Source: an uncultured bacterium
GTDB lineage: Bacteria; UBP6; UBA1177
Assembly (NCBI GenBank): GCA_905235605.1
Contig: CAJOMF010000013.1
Span: 1-47,716 of the forward strand
DNA: 47,716 nt
Direction: 5' to 3'
A program made the translations under genes and the position numbers. The notes below the pieces were generated by a model that was given only the letters and a program-made list of their open reading frames with translations, had not been told where the DNA came from and made no database searches. This document shows positions 5,524 to 38,960 of the stretch, piece by piece; position 1 is the first letter of the stretch, and every line of letters starts with the position of its first letter.

Positions 5524-7413
5524 ATGAAAAAAATCTTCATTGTTTTAGCTTTGCTTTGTGTTTTTTCTCTTCATGCAGCCCCTGCGGCAAACCAGAACGC
5601 ACAACCTGCCAAAACAGCAGTCGCAAAATCCTACTCTTTTGCAGAAGAACCTGTCGATTTGCCGATCAAACCTTTTGTTGCTGGACAGCTCAGCAACGCT
5701 GACCTGATGAACACTTCTCCGCAACTGCTGAAACTTTATGAAACGGCTGTAAACGCCGAAAAGCAGAAAAATGTTTTCAAGAATCCTGCATCCGTAATCA
5801 AAGCATGGACTGAAGTTGCAAAAATCACTCAGAAGAATCCGTTTTTTTATACTGCAAACGCAAGACTCAACGAGTGGAAAACCTGCATCGAGCTTTTAAA
5901 CAAACATCAGGAGAATATGGACAAAATAAAAATGCTGCTCCCGAGCACGCTTCTTTCCGAAGAACAGAAAACAAACATTATCATTCAGCACTTGACTGAT
6001 TTCGGACTTAATTTCGGAACCCAGGAAGTTGTTGATTTAATCAGCAAGACCAGCATTCCGAACAATGCCGTTTTTCAGGCTAAAGTAAAAGAAACCAAGC
6101 AGAAACGCTGCGAAAAAAATTCAGGAAAAGACTGCTTTGAATGCGCGAAAGCAACAGCTGCAGAAGCTGAACAGTTTGCTCTTTTTGAAAAATCATGCGG
6201 ACTCAGATTTCAGCCGGGATGTGAGGAAGTCAACAAAATAAAAGCAGCCAAAGAAGCTGAAAAAGCAAAACTCGCTGCTGAAGAAAAACGCAAGGCTGAT
6301 GAATTCGCGAGAAGAAGTTTCTCATTTCAGGATGACCCTGTCAATGTGATCAAGCCTTTTGTTTTAGGTCAGGTCAGCGAACAGGATATTCTTTCAGCAG
6401 ACCCGAAAGTGCTCAAAATGTTCGAAGACACCGTAAACAAGGAAAAGCAGCCTGAAATCATAAAAACACCTGGTGCAATGATCGTCGCATGGGAAGAAAT
6501 AACAAAAATTACTGAGAAAAATCCCTTTATGCAAACTGCAACTCAAAGACTTGCGGAATGGAAAGCTGCTCTCGAAAAGTTAGAAAAGCATGAAGCAAAA
6601 TCGGCTGAAATGCAGAAAATCGAGGCAGATCAATCGCTTCCGGTAAATTACAGAACAGCTTTTGCGGTAAATTATCTGAACGAATTCGGAGTAAACTTCG
6701 GCACGACCGAAGTTGTCAAAGCGACCGTCTACAACAACGAAATAGCATACAGCGAATCTCTGACGACAAAAATCAAAGAGGTGAGAAAACAACGCTGTGA
6801 CCTTAATTCCGCTATCGACTGCCAGACTTACGGCCTGAAACATTCTGCAAACGACGAGGAAAAAGCAGCATATCTCAAAAAAGCGTGCGACCTCGGGCGC
6901 AAAGCTGCATGTTCAGGTGAGCAGCCGCAAAATACCGCTGCTCCTGCTCCTGTTGAAACTCAGCCCAAAGTTGCGGAACAGCCGAAAAAAGAACCTACTA
7001 ATGAAGATAAATTCAAAGAAGAACTCAACAGCGCAGGAAGAAAAACACGTCTCACAATCGCTACAACAACACTTGTTGCAGGTGCAGTTGTCGGAGCACT
7101 CGGCGGAGTCTCGCTTTACGCCATGAACGAGGCAAAAAAAGACCGCGACAAATATCTTGATTCTTATAGGCAAAGCGCGACTCAGGAAAGCATGAACTAC
7201 TTCCGCAAAAAAACGAACGATGCAGACAAAAAGCGGAAAACCTACATGGCTTTGGGCGGAGTCGGAATCGGTGTCGGAGTTGCACTTATCGCGACTGGAA
7301 TCACATTCTACAGCATCGAATTCGAGGGCGAAAAAGATGTTAAGAAAAAATACAACGTCTCCTTCGGCACAAGCCCGATGGACGGAACCTTGCAATTTGC
7401 ATTGAGGTGGTAA
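5524..7413 (+). CDS. Exported protein with two duplicated ~200-residue domains, function unknown
   Basis: 629 residues. An N-terminal signal peptide (MKKIFIVLALLCVFSLHA) ends in AxA-like cleavage sites and has no lipobox. Residues about 36-243 and 264-463 are two copies of one domain, sharing SFxxxPVxxIKPFVxGQ, LKxxExxVNxEKQ, NPFxxTAxxRLxEWK and FGxNFGTxEVV. Each ends in a Cys-containing stretch (KKACDLGRKAACSG in the second) that resembles Sel1-type repeats. A Glu/Lys/Pro linker follows, then two glycine-rich hydrophobic segments (around 520 and 580), so the C-terminus may be membrane-anchored. Start supported by GGAGAG. The next gene begins 2 bases after the stop, suggesting co-expression. 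I recognise no catalytic motif. Confidence 0.8.
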   Translation: MKKIFIVLALLCVFSLHAAPAANQNAQPAKTAVAKSYSFAEEPVDLPIKPFVAGQLSNADLMNTSPQLLKLYETAVNAEKQKNVFKNPASVIKAWTEVAKITQKNPFFYTANARLNEWKTCIELLNKHQENMDKIKMLLPSTLLSEEQKTNIIIQHLTDFGLNFGTQEVVDLISKTSIPNNAVFQAKVKETKQKRCEKNSGKDCFECAKATAAEAEQFALFEKSCGLRFQPGCEEVNKIKAAKEAEKAKLAAEEKRKADEFARRSFSFQDDPVNVIKPFVLGQVSEQDILSADPKVLKMFEDTVNKEKQPEIIKTPGAMIVAWEEITKITEKNPFMQTATQRLAEWKAALEKLEKHEAKSAEMQKIEADQSLPVNYRTAFAVNYLNEFGVNFGTTEVVKATVYNNEIAYSESLTTKIKEVRKQRCDLNSAIDCQTYGLKHSANDEEKAAYLKKACDLGRKAACSGEQPQNTAAPAPVETQPKVAEQPKKEPTNEDKFKEELNSAGRKTRLTIATTTLVAGAVVGALGGVSLYAMNEAKKDRDKYLDSYRQSATQESMNYFRKKTNDADKKRKTYMALGGVGIGVGVALIATGITFYSIEFEGEKDVKKKYNVSFGTSPMDGTLQFALRW

Positions 7414-7415
7414 TC

Positions 7416-8688
7416 ATGAAATTCAAATCATTAATCCTATTGCTCGTTTCATTGTTCATCCTGTTTTCCTGCGACGACGGGATCAAATTCGACAATCCGC
7501 TTGACGAGCGCAACAGGACTTCCGATTCAAACGATACAGAAGCAGAAACAGAGAGCGACGATGATAAAACTGACATTGCGTCAACTAACGACGAGGAAAA
7601 CCAGAATCGGGATGATTCTGATTCAGGCGACACAATGCCGGATGATGCAGATTCCGTCAATGATTCAGGCGATTCCATGCCCGACGAAAGTGATTCCGAT
7701 GACGATTCAGCTGATTCCGTTTCGGATGATGATTCCGATTCTGCTCCTGAAAATGACGATGATACCGATAGCGAACCGGATGAAGATGAAGACGAACCTG
7801 TCGTGGTATCGGTAACAACAAAATGCAGCAATATCCCAGAAAACGCTGTCTACAACACTGTCGATGAAATTACGCAGACTTGGAACGGTGAAGAGTGGAT
7901 CCCAACAAACGAAAGTTATTTCAGCGAGACTTCAAGCACGACAGAATGCAGATACAAATGCAGCACTAATTACAGTTGGAACAATTCGAATTCGACCTGC
8001 GTCTTAACAACACAGCAGGGAACCTGTTCGGCAAAACCTGCCAACACCGTCTGGAACGATAACGGCAAAAACGGAAAATTTGATCAGACTTGGAACGGTT
8101 CGACCTATACTCCAGAGAGTTACACATCAACTTACAGCGAAACTGCCGGAGTTTGCAGGTTCAAATGCGCATCGGCAGAATACACATGGAACGGCAGCAC
8201 ATGCGCAAGCAACGGCTCATCAACAGACTCCGTGCAAGGATTCATCAAGCGGCCTCATCTGGTCAGCGAGGACATCATCAACCTACACATGGCAGAATGC
8301 AGGCACATATTGTAATAATTTGACAGAAGGCGGCTATTCGGATTGGCATCTGCCGACGATTGATGAACTCAGGACGCTTCTGATAGCAGACAGAGTGAAA
8401 AACAACTGTCAGGTAAGTGAAACAAACGGTTGTTTGTCTCGTTCAAGTTGCTGGAGTTGTTCGACCTGCACGCAGACAGGTACACAGTCATCAAGCGGAA
8501 CTGGTTGTGATTCTTGGGGCACCTCATACAGCGACGGGCGTTACAGCAAATTTGGGGAAACCGGATATTTCTGGTCCTCTTCTACTAGGTCAGATAATAC
8601 AGTTCTCGCATGGCGCGTGGGTTTCGGCAGTGGGTTTGTGTACGACTACATTAAGTCGTACAATATCTATGTTCGTTGTGTGAGGTAG
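7416..8688 (+). pseudogene. DUF1566 (Lcl C-terminal domain) lipoprotein gene with one frameshift
   Basis: Starts at ATG 7416 after GAGGTGG, 2 bases behind the upstream gene. The first frame has a lipoprotein signal (LFILFSC), an Asp/Ser-rich linker of about 100 residues, then two ~60-residue Cys repeats, each with QTWNG and CR(Y/F)KC. This frame ends at 8315. The conserved C-terminal domain continues one frame over, from about 8230 to 8688: CKDSSSGLIWS, GGYSDWHLPTIDELRTL, GYFWSSST and the terminal YVRCVR, which is DUF1566. A single-base change near 8222-8232 would rejoin the frames. There is no homopolymer there, so it could be a real recent mutation or an assembly error. Surface-exposed lipoprotein; biochemical role unknown. 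Confidence 0.8.
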
Positions 8689-16786: not shown

Positions 16787-17599
16787 TTAAAGACCAGCCG
16801 CCATCTTCAGCATTACAACAGCCGCGACCGCCGTTATTCCGGTGATAAAAATGATTCTGCCATAGATTTTTTCCTTGAAATCCTTTTTTGCGAAGAAGAA
16901 ATTCAACAAAAGAAGAATGATTGATGAAAGAGGCAGGATCACCGCGATTTTCTGCGGACTCAACAGGAATCCGACTGCTGAAAGAAGCATGAAAAACACC
17001 GATACTGCACAGGTTTTTCCAAGACCGATCCTGTTTTTCCTTCCGGCAAGCGCATCACCTTCCGTATCTGACAGATCTTTCAGCGCTGTAACTCCCAGAA
17101 CATGGAGCAGAAGGCTCAGGGAACACGGAAGGAAACTCTTTCCGCCGGCCACGATCATCGGATAGGATATCCCGAATCCCGTGACAAAACATGCCAGGAT
17201 CCCGCGTTTTTTTAACACAAACGGCGGCAGAGAATAGAAAACACCGAAAATCAAAATGAAAAAAACGAGAAATTTTTCCATACTTTCAAAAAGGATGACT
17301 GTGCCGAAAATAGAACCTAAAGTTAGGAAAATCAGCCACAACACAGCATCACGCCGCGATATTACGCCGCTTGGCAGAGGACGCCACGGCTTGTTTGCAG
17401 AATCTTCGACAACATCGGTTATCGAATTGAGCGTGTAAACGAAATTGTACGGGAAAAGTGCAATAAAAACAGCCTGAACTACAAAAATCCATGAAAAATC
17501 ACTGTTTCCGAGCAGTCTTCCGGCAAAAAATGCAAGAAACGAAAGCAGAAGAACATCTGCGCGGTAAAGTCTGAAAAATGCCGGAAATTTGCAGAACAT
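16787..17599 (-). CDS. UbiA-family prenyltransferase
   Basis: 270 residues with about eight hydrophobic segments. The two Asp-rich motifs of UbiA enzymes are present: NSITDVVEDSANKPWRPLPSG and DLSDTEGDALAG. These bind magnesium and the prenyl diphosphate. It differs from the DPPR synthase-like protein at 1039, so this is a second, separate UbiA enzyme. The acceptor (a quinone ring, a lipid or a sugar phosphate) cannot be told. It starts 3 bases after the subtilase stop with no good ribosome site of its own, suggesting translational coupling. The terminal stop is 75 bases from the next start. Confidence 0.8.
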   Translation of the reverse strand: MFCKFPAFFRLYRADVLLLSFLAFFAGRLLGNSDFSWIFVVQAVFIALFPYNFVYTLNSITDVVEDSANKPWRPLPSGVISRRDAVLWLIFLTLGSIFGTVILFESMEKFLVFFILIFGVFYSLPPFVLKKRGILACFVTGFGISYPMIVAGGKSFLPCSLSLLLHVLGVTALKDLSDTEGDALAGRKNRIGLGKTCAVSVFFMLLSAVGFLLSPQKIAVILPLSSIILLLLNFFFAKKDFKEKIYGRIIFITGITAVAAVVMLKMAAGL

Positions 17600-17602
17600 C
17601 GG

Positions 17603-19396
17603 TTAAATCATGGTAAGAGAGCAGCCTGAGCCTTTAGATTTTACTTCCGGAACCTGATTTTCAGAATCATTGTCAGGAGTTTCAACCGGAGCTGCGTCTT
17701 CGTCCGCATCAGTTGATTCATCCGGTTCTTCCGGTTCGGGTTCGGGCTCCGGTTCAGGTTCTGGTACGACAGGAGTTTCGCCGCAGACAACACCCGTCAT
17801 ATCGGTCCCCGCCGTTTCGAAAGCCTTTTTGACAGCTTCGCATGCATTTATCCTGCCGTAGCCGTAATTCATGTTGAAACCGTTGGCATCGTAGGCATCG
17901 AAACCGTTTTTATCGGATGTTTCCTTGAAAATTTCATAAACCTGATCTTTGGTAAGATTAGGATTAGCCGTGAGAACAAGGCCTGTGACACCGGCTGCCA
18001 GCGGACATGCCGAAGAAGTTCCGCCGAAACTGTTTGTGTAGTTGCCGAGCGCGTCGCCGTCATTCGTGCTGCCTGCGTTGTAACCGGCACTTCCCATGTT
18101 GTCGGTCGTCCATATCCCGTCGATGTAGCTGCCGCCTGCCCAGCCGTCACCGCCCGAAGAATCGATGTCGCAGCTTGAAGCCATGAAGTCAAGAGAATTT
18201 CCGAAATCGGAGTACGAAGCCCTGTTGCCGGAAGCGTTTGTAGCACCTATCGCAAAAACATTCGGGTTGCTTGCATATCCGTCTGTTTCGATGCTCTCCC
18301 CGCCGTTTCCTGCCGCAAAAAGAATAATCGTTCCGAGACCGTTTCTGCCCGTTGTCGTGATATTTGCAACAAGATCCTTCAAAGTCTGGTTCATGTCGAC
18401 AGTCTGACCGCTGTTGTCAGCAGGACCCCAGCTGTTTGAAATTATGTCTGCGCCTGCATCTGCAGCCCATTCGAAAGCCTCTATCGCGGAAGAATCGAGC
18501 GAATAGGTATTCATGTTCATTCTTATCGGGATAAGCTGACAGTTGGGGCACGCCCCTGCGATACCTGTTGCGTTGTCAGTCGCACCGCCTGCAACTCCGG
18601 CAACCGACGTTCCGTGCATATCCTGCGCTCCCGGATTCGGCATATCGTCTCCGTCAGCAAAATCGTGACCGGGGAGGAAACGTCCCTGAAAATCTTCGTG
18701 CGTAAGGTCGAAACCGTCATCTATTATCGCCAGTTTTACATTAGAACCGCCGAGTTCGCCTTTGAATGCAAGCATCAGATCCCATGCATCGGCAACGTGA
18801 GTGTGGTCGGTTCCGGTAAGCGAAGGATCTCCGAAATTGTGAAGATGCCACTGGTTGAAAAACAAAGGATCGTCAGGGATATAGGTCCTCTTCTCTAAAT
18901 TCATGAAAAAGCTGGGCTCAGCCTGTCCGGCGCTCTTTTTTTCGACAAGTTCGACCGATTTTCTGACCGGATCCTCGTTTGTTGAAACAAGATACCAGTC
19001 AGACGCATACTTAAACTTTTTAACGAGGCTCAAACCTTGGGATCCGCACCACTTTTCAACATTGTCAACGCCGCTGATCTTTACGAAAATCATGCCGCTG
19101 GCATAGACTTTCTCACCGCCGTTTCTCTTGTAAGCAGGAAGAATTTTTCCGTGTTTTTCAAGTTCAAGGATGTTTTCAGAAGAGAGTTTTTCAAAAAGAA
19201 AAATGTTTTCGTGCCTGAGCATGAACTTGAGATTTTTCGGGAGATTTCCGGCATTTTTAGTCACCCTGCCGTCAATAAACGTGTAACCCGAAGTCTCGGT
19301 CACAGGAATTTTTTTACCGTTCGAATAGTAGTAAAGATTTTCCGCAAAAATAAAAAGCGGAAGCAGAACAACCAGAAGCAACGTGATTTTTTTCAT
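17603..19396 (-). CDS. Exported subtilisin-like serine protease (S8) with GCSLTMI C-terminus
   Basis: 597 residues. Signal peptide MKKITLLLVVLLPLFIFA with cleavage before ENL. Prodomain-like region to about 160, then the S8 catalytic domain: Asp226 in LAIIDDGFD, His261 in MHGTSVAG, oxyanion Asn321 in SNSWG, and Ser461 in GGTSSACPLAAG. The C-terminal tail after about 545 is a Pro-Glu repeat, then Asp/Glu-rich linker, ending KSKGSGCSLTMI. This ending recurs in the Cys-rich protein at 38076. AAGGAG lies 6 bases before the ATG. Likely matured at the cell surface or secreted. The downstream UbiA gene is closely coupled. Confidence 0.93.
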   Translation of the reverse strand: MKKITLLLVVLLPLFIFAENLYYYSNGKKIPVTETSGYTFIDGRVTKNAGNLPKNLKFMLRHENIFLFEKLSSENILELEKHGKILPAYKRNGGEKVYASGMIFVKISGVDNVEKWCGSQGLSLVKKFKYASDWYLVSTNEDPVRKSVELVEKKSAGQAEPSFFMNLEKRTYIPDDPLFFNQWHLHNFGDPSLTGTDHTHVADAWDLMLAFKGELGGSNVKLAIIDDGFDLTHEDFQGRFLPGHDFADGDDMPNPGAQDMHGTSVAGVAGGATDNATGIAGACPNCQLIPIRMNMNTYSLDSSAIEAFEWAADAGADIISNSWGPADNSGQTVDMNQTLKDLVANITTTGRNGLGTIILFAAGNGGESIETDGYASNPNVFAIGATNASGNRASYSDFGNSLDFMASSCDIDSSGGDGWAGGSYIDGIWTTDNMGSAGYNAGSTNDGDALGNYTNSFGGTSSACPLAAGVTGLVLTANPNLTKDQVYEIFKETSDKNGFDAYDANGFNMNYGYGRINACEAVKKAFETAGTDMTGVVCGETPVVPEPEPEPEPEPEEPDESTDADEDAAPVETPDNDSENQVPEVKSKGSGCSLTMI

Positions 19397-38075: not shown

Positions 38076-38960
38076 ATGAAAAAGTTATTGATTTTTATCG
38101 CGATGCTTGCGGTTGCAACTACACTTTTCGCTGAAAACAACACGATTTCATGCGAATCCGACCTTGGGAAATGCACCTACACTCTTACAGATTCATTCAG
38201 CAGAGAGTGCACATGCCGCGACAACACGGGAGTTTCAGAAGCGGAAATCCCGCCGGAAGGAGGAACTGTGGAAGCGACTCTCCCGACAGAAGAAGAGTGC
38301 CTTGCCGAGCTTGCAGATATCTGCGGGAATGCCGATATCCTGTGTGAAAACGAAGCCGGCGAATGCAGCATGGAACCGAACGGCGAATACAACTGCGGAT
38401 GTTACGGCATCGTTAACGGCTACCATTCAGGCACAGCTGATTCTGCCTCTGAAGAAAGCTGCAGTGCAGTTCTCGTAGAACACTGCGGAACAGCAGCAGC
38501 AACGGCAAGAACGCTCTGCACCGATTCCGAAATTTTCAACGTATGCCTTACATACGCGAAGAGTTTTACGAACACATGCTACGAGCCGATGACAGATGAA
38601 GAAATTGAAGCCGCTCTCGACCTTCCGGCAGAAACGAACGACACGACTGCTGCACTTGCAGTATGCTGCCAGGATGAAGAAATGAGAGAAGGCTGGTTCA
38701 AAGATTCTTTTGAATGTCTCGAAGCTGTAGAAAGCTGCGACAACAAAGAGTGCTGCGAAACCTGCGATGTTTTCGTTCTTGAAGAGTCCACTGAAACTTA
38801 CGCTCCGGAAGACGGTGCTGAAGATGCAGGCAACACCGAAACTCCGACCGATGATGCAGTTGACAACGGCGACGGCTCTGCAGCTCCGACTGACGGTGCT
38901 GATGCTCCAGCTGAAAAGGAAGAAAGCAAATCCGACGGCTGTTCGATGCTGTTCATCTAA
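38076..38960 (+). CDS. Exported Cys-rich repeat protein with GCSMLFI C-terminus
   Basis: 294 residues. Signal peptide MKKLLIFIAMLAVATTLFA with cleavage before ENN and no lipobox. The mature part has about 23 cysteines. Two early repeats match: ISCESDLGKCTY...ECTCRDNTG...EEECLAELADICG and ILCENEAGECSM...NCGCYGIVNG...EESCSAVLVEHCG. A Pro/Thr/Asp/Ala-rich linker follows residue 230, then the ending SKSDGCSMLFI, as in the subtilase at 17603. GGAGG precedes ATG 38076. Many disulphides suggest an extracellular protein. No known family recognised. Confidence 0.82.
   Translation: MKKLLIFIAMLAVATTLFAENNTISCESDLGKCTYTLTDSFSRECTCRDNTGVSEAEIPPEGGTVEATLPTEEECLAELADICGNADILCENEAGECSMEPNGEYNCGCYGIVNGYHSGTADSASEESCSAVLVEHCGTAAATARTLCTDSEIFNVCLTYAKSFTNTCYEPMTDEEIEAALDLPAETNDTTAALAVCCQDEEMREGWFKDSFECLEAVESCDNKECCETCDVFVLEESTETYAPEDGAEDAGNTETPTDDAVDNGDGSAAPTDGADAPAEKEESKSDGCSMLFI

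Follow-up and report, generated by a model that had tools for sequence, protein, structure and literature searches.

A short, helix-free Gly-Cys tag at the C-termini of exported proteins in uncultured UBP6 bacteria, best read as a reduced MYXO-CTERM-type sorting signal

Unrelated exported proteins encoded by an order of uncultured bacteria in the phylum UBP6 share a short C-terminal ending that is best read, from its homology to longer tags in the same phylum, as a sorting signal of the MYXO-CTERM type stripped of its helix and basic tail. Two such proteins, a subtilase and a Cys-rich protein, are encoded in the window (the whole stretch of 47,716 nucleotides that was analyzed). The original prediction had assigned to both a common G-C-S-[L/M]-x-x-I terminus, a signal peptidase I (SPI)-type signal without a lipobox, an acidic/Pro-rich linker and no membrane segment after the Cys, and each of these traits is seen in both translations. 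The relevant features are as follows.

17603..19396, minus strand: exported subtilase (S8 family) with the short tag (Pfam PF00082, E=3.9e-45, and translation)
19343..19396, minus strand: SPI-type signal peptide of the subtilase, MKKITLLLVVLLPLFIFA (residues 1-18), without a lipobox
17627..17782, minus strand: subtilase linker (residues 539-590), acidic and Pro/Glu-rich, then a Lys/Ser/Gly patch, VKSKGS, just before the tag
17603..17626, minus strand: short C-terminal tag of the subtilase, G-C-S-L-T-M-I, and stop codon TAA (sequence)
38076..38960, plus strand: exported Cys-rich protein with the short tag, member of a genus-specific expanded family (sequence and alignment)
38076..38132, plus strand: SPI-type signal peptide of the Cys-rich protein, MKKLLIFIAMLAVATTLFA (residues 1-19)
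38784..38936, plus strand: linker of the Cys-rich protein, predicted disordered and acidic, ending in a near-invariant KEESKSD (pLDDT and alignment)
38937..38960, plus strand: short C-terminal tag of the Cys-rich protein, G-C-S-M-L-F-I, and stop codon TAA (sequence)

In translation the subtilase ends in EVKSKGSGCSLTMI-stop (i.e., GSGCSLTMI) and the Cys-rich protein in EESKSDGCSMLFI-stop (i.e., SDGCSMLFI). The predicted SPI cleavage sites are ..LFIFA/EN and ..TLFA/EN, respectively, and in neither protein does a membrane segment follow the Cys. In the AF2 model of the Cys-rich protein, linker residues 237-285 have a pLDDT below 50, i.e., the linker is predicted to be disordered, and its length is highly variable among paralogues in the alignment. 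The C-terminal end of this family is almost frozen (KEESKSDGCSMLFI), and its members often occur two to three per locus (loci L109, L122, L126, L141, L146, L157, L158, L173 and L179). No Pfam or NCBIfam family matched the Cys-rich protein, and a fold search with its AF2 core gave no PDB match, with nothing under E=0.08.

The shared ending is far from a chance occurrence. A DNA pattern for G-C-S-h-x-h-h-stop, run with a reversed control on 61 genomes, gave 279 matches as compared to 9 for the control in 25 genomes of the window's order (phylum UBP6: UBA1177, UBA1196 and UBA1209, mostly bins from ruminant guts), and 14 as compared to 15 in the other 36 genomes. The window's own genome contributes 13 matches (1 for the control), and its in-frame tagged ORFs share a common build: an exported protein, an acidic or Ser/Lys-rich stretch, GCS, about four further residues and a stop. 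The original prediction had proposed enrichment among signal-peptide proteins as a check, and such enrichment was found: in 685 ORFs drawn from 846 kb of the 2.67-Mb own genome without regard to tags, the short tag ends 6 of the 224 that begin with a signal peptide and 1 of the 461 that do not (Fisher p = 0.006), signal peptides having been called by a simple home-made heuristic rule and inspection by eye. Among the genomes searched, the enrichment is limited to the 25 of the order, and in 33 myxosortase-bearing genomes of other phyla no real gene was found among the pattern matches.

The claim that unrelated exported proteins share a C-terminal signal, first made for two proteins, now extends to at least eight unrelated carrier families; the 81 tagged ORFs that were collected fall into 12 groups, and this minimum remains after cut and spurious ORFs are set aside. 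The carriers include subtilases, M36/M4-like metallopeptidases, a C25 peptidase, a likely amidase, a purple acid phosphatase and the Cys-rich family, together with some other groups without a domain match. A 73-residue open frame at locus L406 (G023:C1) may encode a tiny secreted protein made up of little else than a signal peptide, an acidic stretch and the tag GCALTLL. Nearly all 81 tagged ORFs begin with an SPI-type signal, the exceptions being cut, mis-started or spurious ORFs and one that is unexplained. On inspection, true lipoboxes are absent from the cleavage sites of all tagged ORFs, whereas 171 of 481 untagged signal-peptide ORFs were called SPII; the tagged-ORF count does not represent independent events because many of these ORFs are orthologues. 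A preponderance of hydrolases is also known for MYXO-CTERM proteins of Myxococcus xanthus, which are hydrolases and adhesins (PMC11980579), and the similar make-up of the UBP6 carriers (hydrolases plus the Cys-rich family) counts for kinship with that system. With the tag as a guide, numerous surface hydrolases can be annotated in this phylum, which is uncultured and known mostly from ruminant guts. With a Cys-rich family among the carriers, the terminal Cys might be imagined to join these proteins to one another or to a wall component through disulphide bonds; however, the carriers are mostly soluble hydrolases, and such bonds would leave the hydrophobic stub and the link to a myxosortase (see below) without explanation, such that disulphide cross-linking appears very improbable and this half of what the original prediction inferred finds no support.

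The anatomy of the tag can be read most clearly from the subtilase homologues, which were found by their catalytic part regardless of their C-terminal ends, the ends being read afterwards. A short, helix-free GC tag is present on 61 of 62 homologues of the order; the only subtilase without a Cys tag (L273, in G020:C2) ends in GSNGSVTM, a natural loss. Gly precedes the first Cys in 60/61 tags, the residue after the last Cys is Ser, Ala or Thr in 57/61, and the later residues are mainly Leu, Ile, Val and Phe. Counted from the C-terminus, the last Cys occupies position six in 42/61 tags (range 4-9). GCGC and GCSC variants also occur, the former matching the generic MYXO-CTERM motif, GCGC (PMC11980579). 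None of the NCBIfam tag models (TIGR03901 included) matched the short or full UBP6 tags at E<=10. The alternating hydrophobic residues and the mostly fixed distance to the C-terminus would also suit a lipid-free recognition element, i.e., a C-terminal beta-strand or a terminus bound by a chaperone, by the type II secretion system (T2SS) or by an outer-membrane receptor, and the T2SS secretin GspD was indeed detected at E<=0.001 in all but one of the 28 UBP6 genomes (27, of which 25 score over the cut-off). Recognition of this kind leaves unexplained, however, both the Gly-Cys found in 60/61 tags and the homology to tags made of Cys, a helix and Arg, and we consider it decidedly unlikely.

That homology is evident from relatives of the tagged proteins within the phylum. 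In family f4, the sister group in UBP6, 7/7 subtilase homologues end in Cys plus a helix plus Lys/Arg (e.g., SSCSYGNNNNDNTFLIFLIFLILAFRKKLSTLNF), and a homologue from family f3 ends in GCGCSVVPVEQHLSDAIIALFALLGLIIVRRRMAA (in outline, GCGCSVVP..RRR). The window's own genome encodes two related proteins of about 1,000 residues with full tags, GCAVTAIDDRNTGVSAVFAMLLFVLGFAFFARKISI and GCAISAVSDSDNTLYLVFAAFAALLALAGVKLSGFRK, which in outline read GCAISAVSDSDN..FRK (GCAISAV-...-helix-FRK) and GCAVTAIDD..ARK. These paralogues are DUF11/DUF7619 proteins (L414:11958-15071, plus strand, and L429:6129-9185, minus strand, on own-genome contigs C6 and C18), and they retain the Cys, helix and basic tag, whereas the remaining tagged proteins of this genome are of the short form, which hints at how the helix was lost. 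A membrane helix follows the Cys on L414, L429 and L451 and on the f4 homologues. Elsewhere in the genus, partial homologues adjacent to the subtilase terminate in EDDDSGCTLTLI-stop and similar sequences, the short form (DDSGCTLTLI-stop). Because proteins of the same family thus occur with and without the helix, the short tag can be equated with residues one to seven of the full tag, and the simplest history would be one in which the helix was lost within the order, a direction preferred because the full form also occurs in Myxococcota. Stop-codon readthrough or a frameshift into a hidden helix was considered and rejected, a helix and basic stretch being found after the stop in only 4 of 81 tagged genes (none in 77/81). 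The resemblance to MYXO-CTERM without its helix and Arg cluster, as originally proposed, is therefore apparent in the retained GC signature and in the absence of both other parts from the short tags. The suggestion of an undescribed signal fared less evenly: a shared sorting-type tag it is, but not a free-standing, wholly undescribed system, since phylum homologues and two own-genome proteins carry GC plus helix plus basic residues and a myxosortase-like protease is present. Nor is the short tag a member of MYXO-CTERM, because the helix and the Arg cluster, two of the defining parts, are missing.

The protease belongs to the CPBP glutamic proteases. A PF02517 protease was found in 28/28 UBP6 genomes, and a match to NF040914 (Mrt_core) at 78-104 bits in 27 of the 28, one per genome, the missing one being a 65% complete bin; one of these UBP6 proteases is encoded at L246:1168-1809. 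The curated cut-off of this model is 100 bits, which one genome reaches (103.7) and 26 miss at 78-99; ordinary CPBPs score 57 bits or less across 386 genomes, which leaves a clear gap. The best CPBP models for the UBP6 protease are MrtP, MrtC and Mrt_core, at 81-91 bits and below all equivalog cut-offs. EExxxR, FxxxH and HxxxN are invariant in 17 orthologues (E122, E123, R127, F157, H161, H198 and N202). By sequence, then, the protease is myxosortase-like, below the curated cut-off; a PDB sequence search with its profile gave no match. In the tree the order's proteases group in a separate clade with a long stem branch, distinct from those of f4 and from the remaining myxosortases, with modest support at the deep forks. 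The notion that f4 lacks a myxosortase was rejected, as the Pfam-derived hits there are other CPBPs and the NF040914 search finds a myxosortase; the protease, being shared with f4, thus tracks the phylum rather than the short tag alone. In the loci seen, the protease gene adjoins no tagged gene.

The similarity to the MYXO-CTERM/MrtX system (TIGR03901, NF040593; M. xanthus TraA, PMC11980579) thus extends from the Gly-Cys signature (GCGC included), N-terminal signal peptide and disordered linker to the dozens of mostly hydrolase carriers, a CPBP glutamic protease with EExxxR and HxxxN, and a T2SS. The UBP6 system differs in that most carriers lack a membrane helix or Arg cluster, in its occurrence outside Myxococcota, in the lack of an NCBIfam tag-model match and in a protease that is best matched by MrtP/MrtC below the equivalog cut-offs. 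JDVT-CTERM/MrtJ and Synerg-CTERM/MrtS (NF033192, NF040589) also have a CPBP protease related to MrtX, and their models match the UBP6 proteases with lower scores than do those of MrtP/MrtC. The JDVT-CTERM and Synerg-CTERM tags have a helix as well. The former is reported to have an invariant Cys in common with MYXO-CTERM (PMC11980579).

In M. xanthus a two-step model has been put forward in which the Cys is lipidated and the tag is then cut by MrtX, followed by passage through the T2SS, the acyltransferase of the model being as yet unidentified (PMC11980579). For UBP6, the observations comprise the tag and its distribution, the homology that links it to the full form, and genomes that encode the protease, a T2SS and Lgt-family proteins; as a whole they are probably best explained by a helix-less tag of the MYXO-CTERM kind that is lipidated, trimmed by the myxosortase and anchored at the surface via the T2SS. 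The carriers would cross the inner membrane by Sec and lose their SPI signal peptide. An inner-membrane enzyme, most likely one of several Lgt-family proteins, would then lipidate the tag Cys, after which the single myxosortase-like CPBP protease would cut behind the lipidated Cys and remove the short hydrophobic stub, as Rce1 does with -aaX. By analogy with the myxobacterial pathway, the T2SS would bring the protein to the surface of the cell, with the C-terminal lipid as its likely anchor there. What speaks against this explanation is that, without a helix, nothing keeps the protein at the membrane before lipidation, a retention on which the myxobacterial model relies. The protease scores under the curated cut-off, the long branch of the order's clade and the location of the protease gene away from tagged genes also count against it. 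One might instead suppose that the Cys is lipidated and never cut, the stub staying in place and the myxosortase serving only the few proteins with a full helix tag. Such proteins in the own genome and in f3 do give the protease other work, and a five-residue stub would be no obstacle to anchoring; the stub nonetheless shows constraint, being hydrophobic and placing the Cys, in most tags, at a set distance from the terminus; this suits recognition of the terminus itself and makes an uncut tag unlikely.

Lipidation of the tag Cys, the step common to the trimmed and uncut readings, is plausible. We know of no acyltransferase that performs it. The G-C-S of the tag resembles the -1/+1/+2 positions of the lipobox of N-terminal lipoproteins (Lgt/LspA), and the Lgt family is expanded in UBP6; the UBP6 proteins differ in that their Cys is C-terminal and the carriers are SPI rather than SPII substrates. 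Each of the 28 UBP6 genomes has 3-7 Lgt-family (PF01790) genes, namely a canonical copy bearing RxGNFxNSE alongside several copies that bear RxGCxxxGCCxG and often have Tyr for the His of HGG; in the own genome they lie on contigs C100, C26, C110, C27, C65, C102 and C29. The RxGCxxxGCCxG paralogues were rejected as a dedicated lipidating enzyme, given that 223 of 386 genomes have them (23/33 with a myxosortase vs 177/329 without). They remain mere candidates because they are widespread in bacteria and show no clear link to the myxosortase, and assigning them a part in the tag pathway would be a guess. A 1,252-residue frame at L349 (G021:C12), with ORFs of similar length in G020, G022 and G023, has an N-terminal Lgt-like domain and an end like that of AraC-type regulators.

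The eukaryotic CaaX/Rce1 system likewise combines a near-terminal Cys, followed by a few residues that are mostly aliphatic, with a protease of the same superfamily. The UBP6 tags differ in that usually five rather than three residues follow the Cys, which is mostly sixth rather than exactly fourth from the end; their carriers are exported, and nothing points to a prenyl group. A UbiA-family prenyltransferase-like gene (16787-17599) shares the reading frame of the subtilase and starts only a few bases past its stop codon; its product could be thought to prenylate the Cys as in a CaaX box. The pairing recurs at 14 loci, all within the genus, and no such neighbour was seen in the stretches read around homologues from other genera, a restriction for which UbiA was rejected as a partner of the tag. 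CaaX prenylation is moreover cytosolic and the carriers are exported, and to our knowledge UbiA enzymes do not prenylate proteins; prenylation is thus extremely improbable. If the preferred reading (lipidation, then trimming by the myxosortase) is right, the short tag would work like both MYXO-CTERM and CaaX/Rce1. The chances seem evenly balanced that in the UBP6 order a CaaX-like tag of Gly-Cys plus about five residues, with no helix, suffices for lipidation, myxosortase trimming and surface anchoring by a C-terminal lipid.

In the prokaryotic C-terminal sorting tags known to us (LPXTG, PEP-CTERM, GlyGly-CTERM and MYXO-CTERM), a membrane helix serves to present the site to the enzyme. The coexistence of helix-free tags with a few full ones in one clade amounts to a natural experiment on the features that the enzyme reads. 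It argues for the view that the signature plus a modified Cys may suffice and that lipidation would precede cutting, an open step in the myxosortase model. If the mechanism holds, the helix would be dispensable, and bacteria may use a lipid-anchoring signal of only a few residues, comparable to the CaaX box of eukaryotic cells. No description of a helix-free myxosortase tag was found in the literature searched, a body of journals covered in part such that an earlier mention is possible. Elsewhere in the window, at 7407-8688, a lipoprotein-like ORF overlaps the next frame, which has an Lcl_C/DUF1566-like end; the apparent frameshift at ~8250-8310 could be a sequencing error or real.
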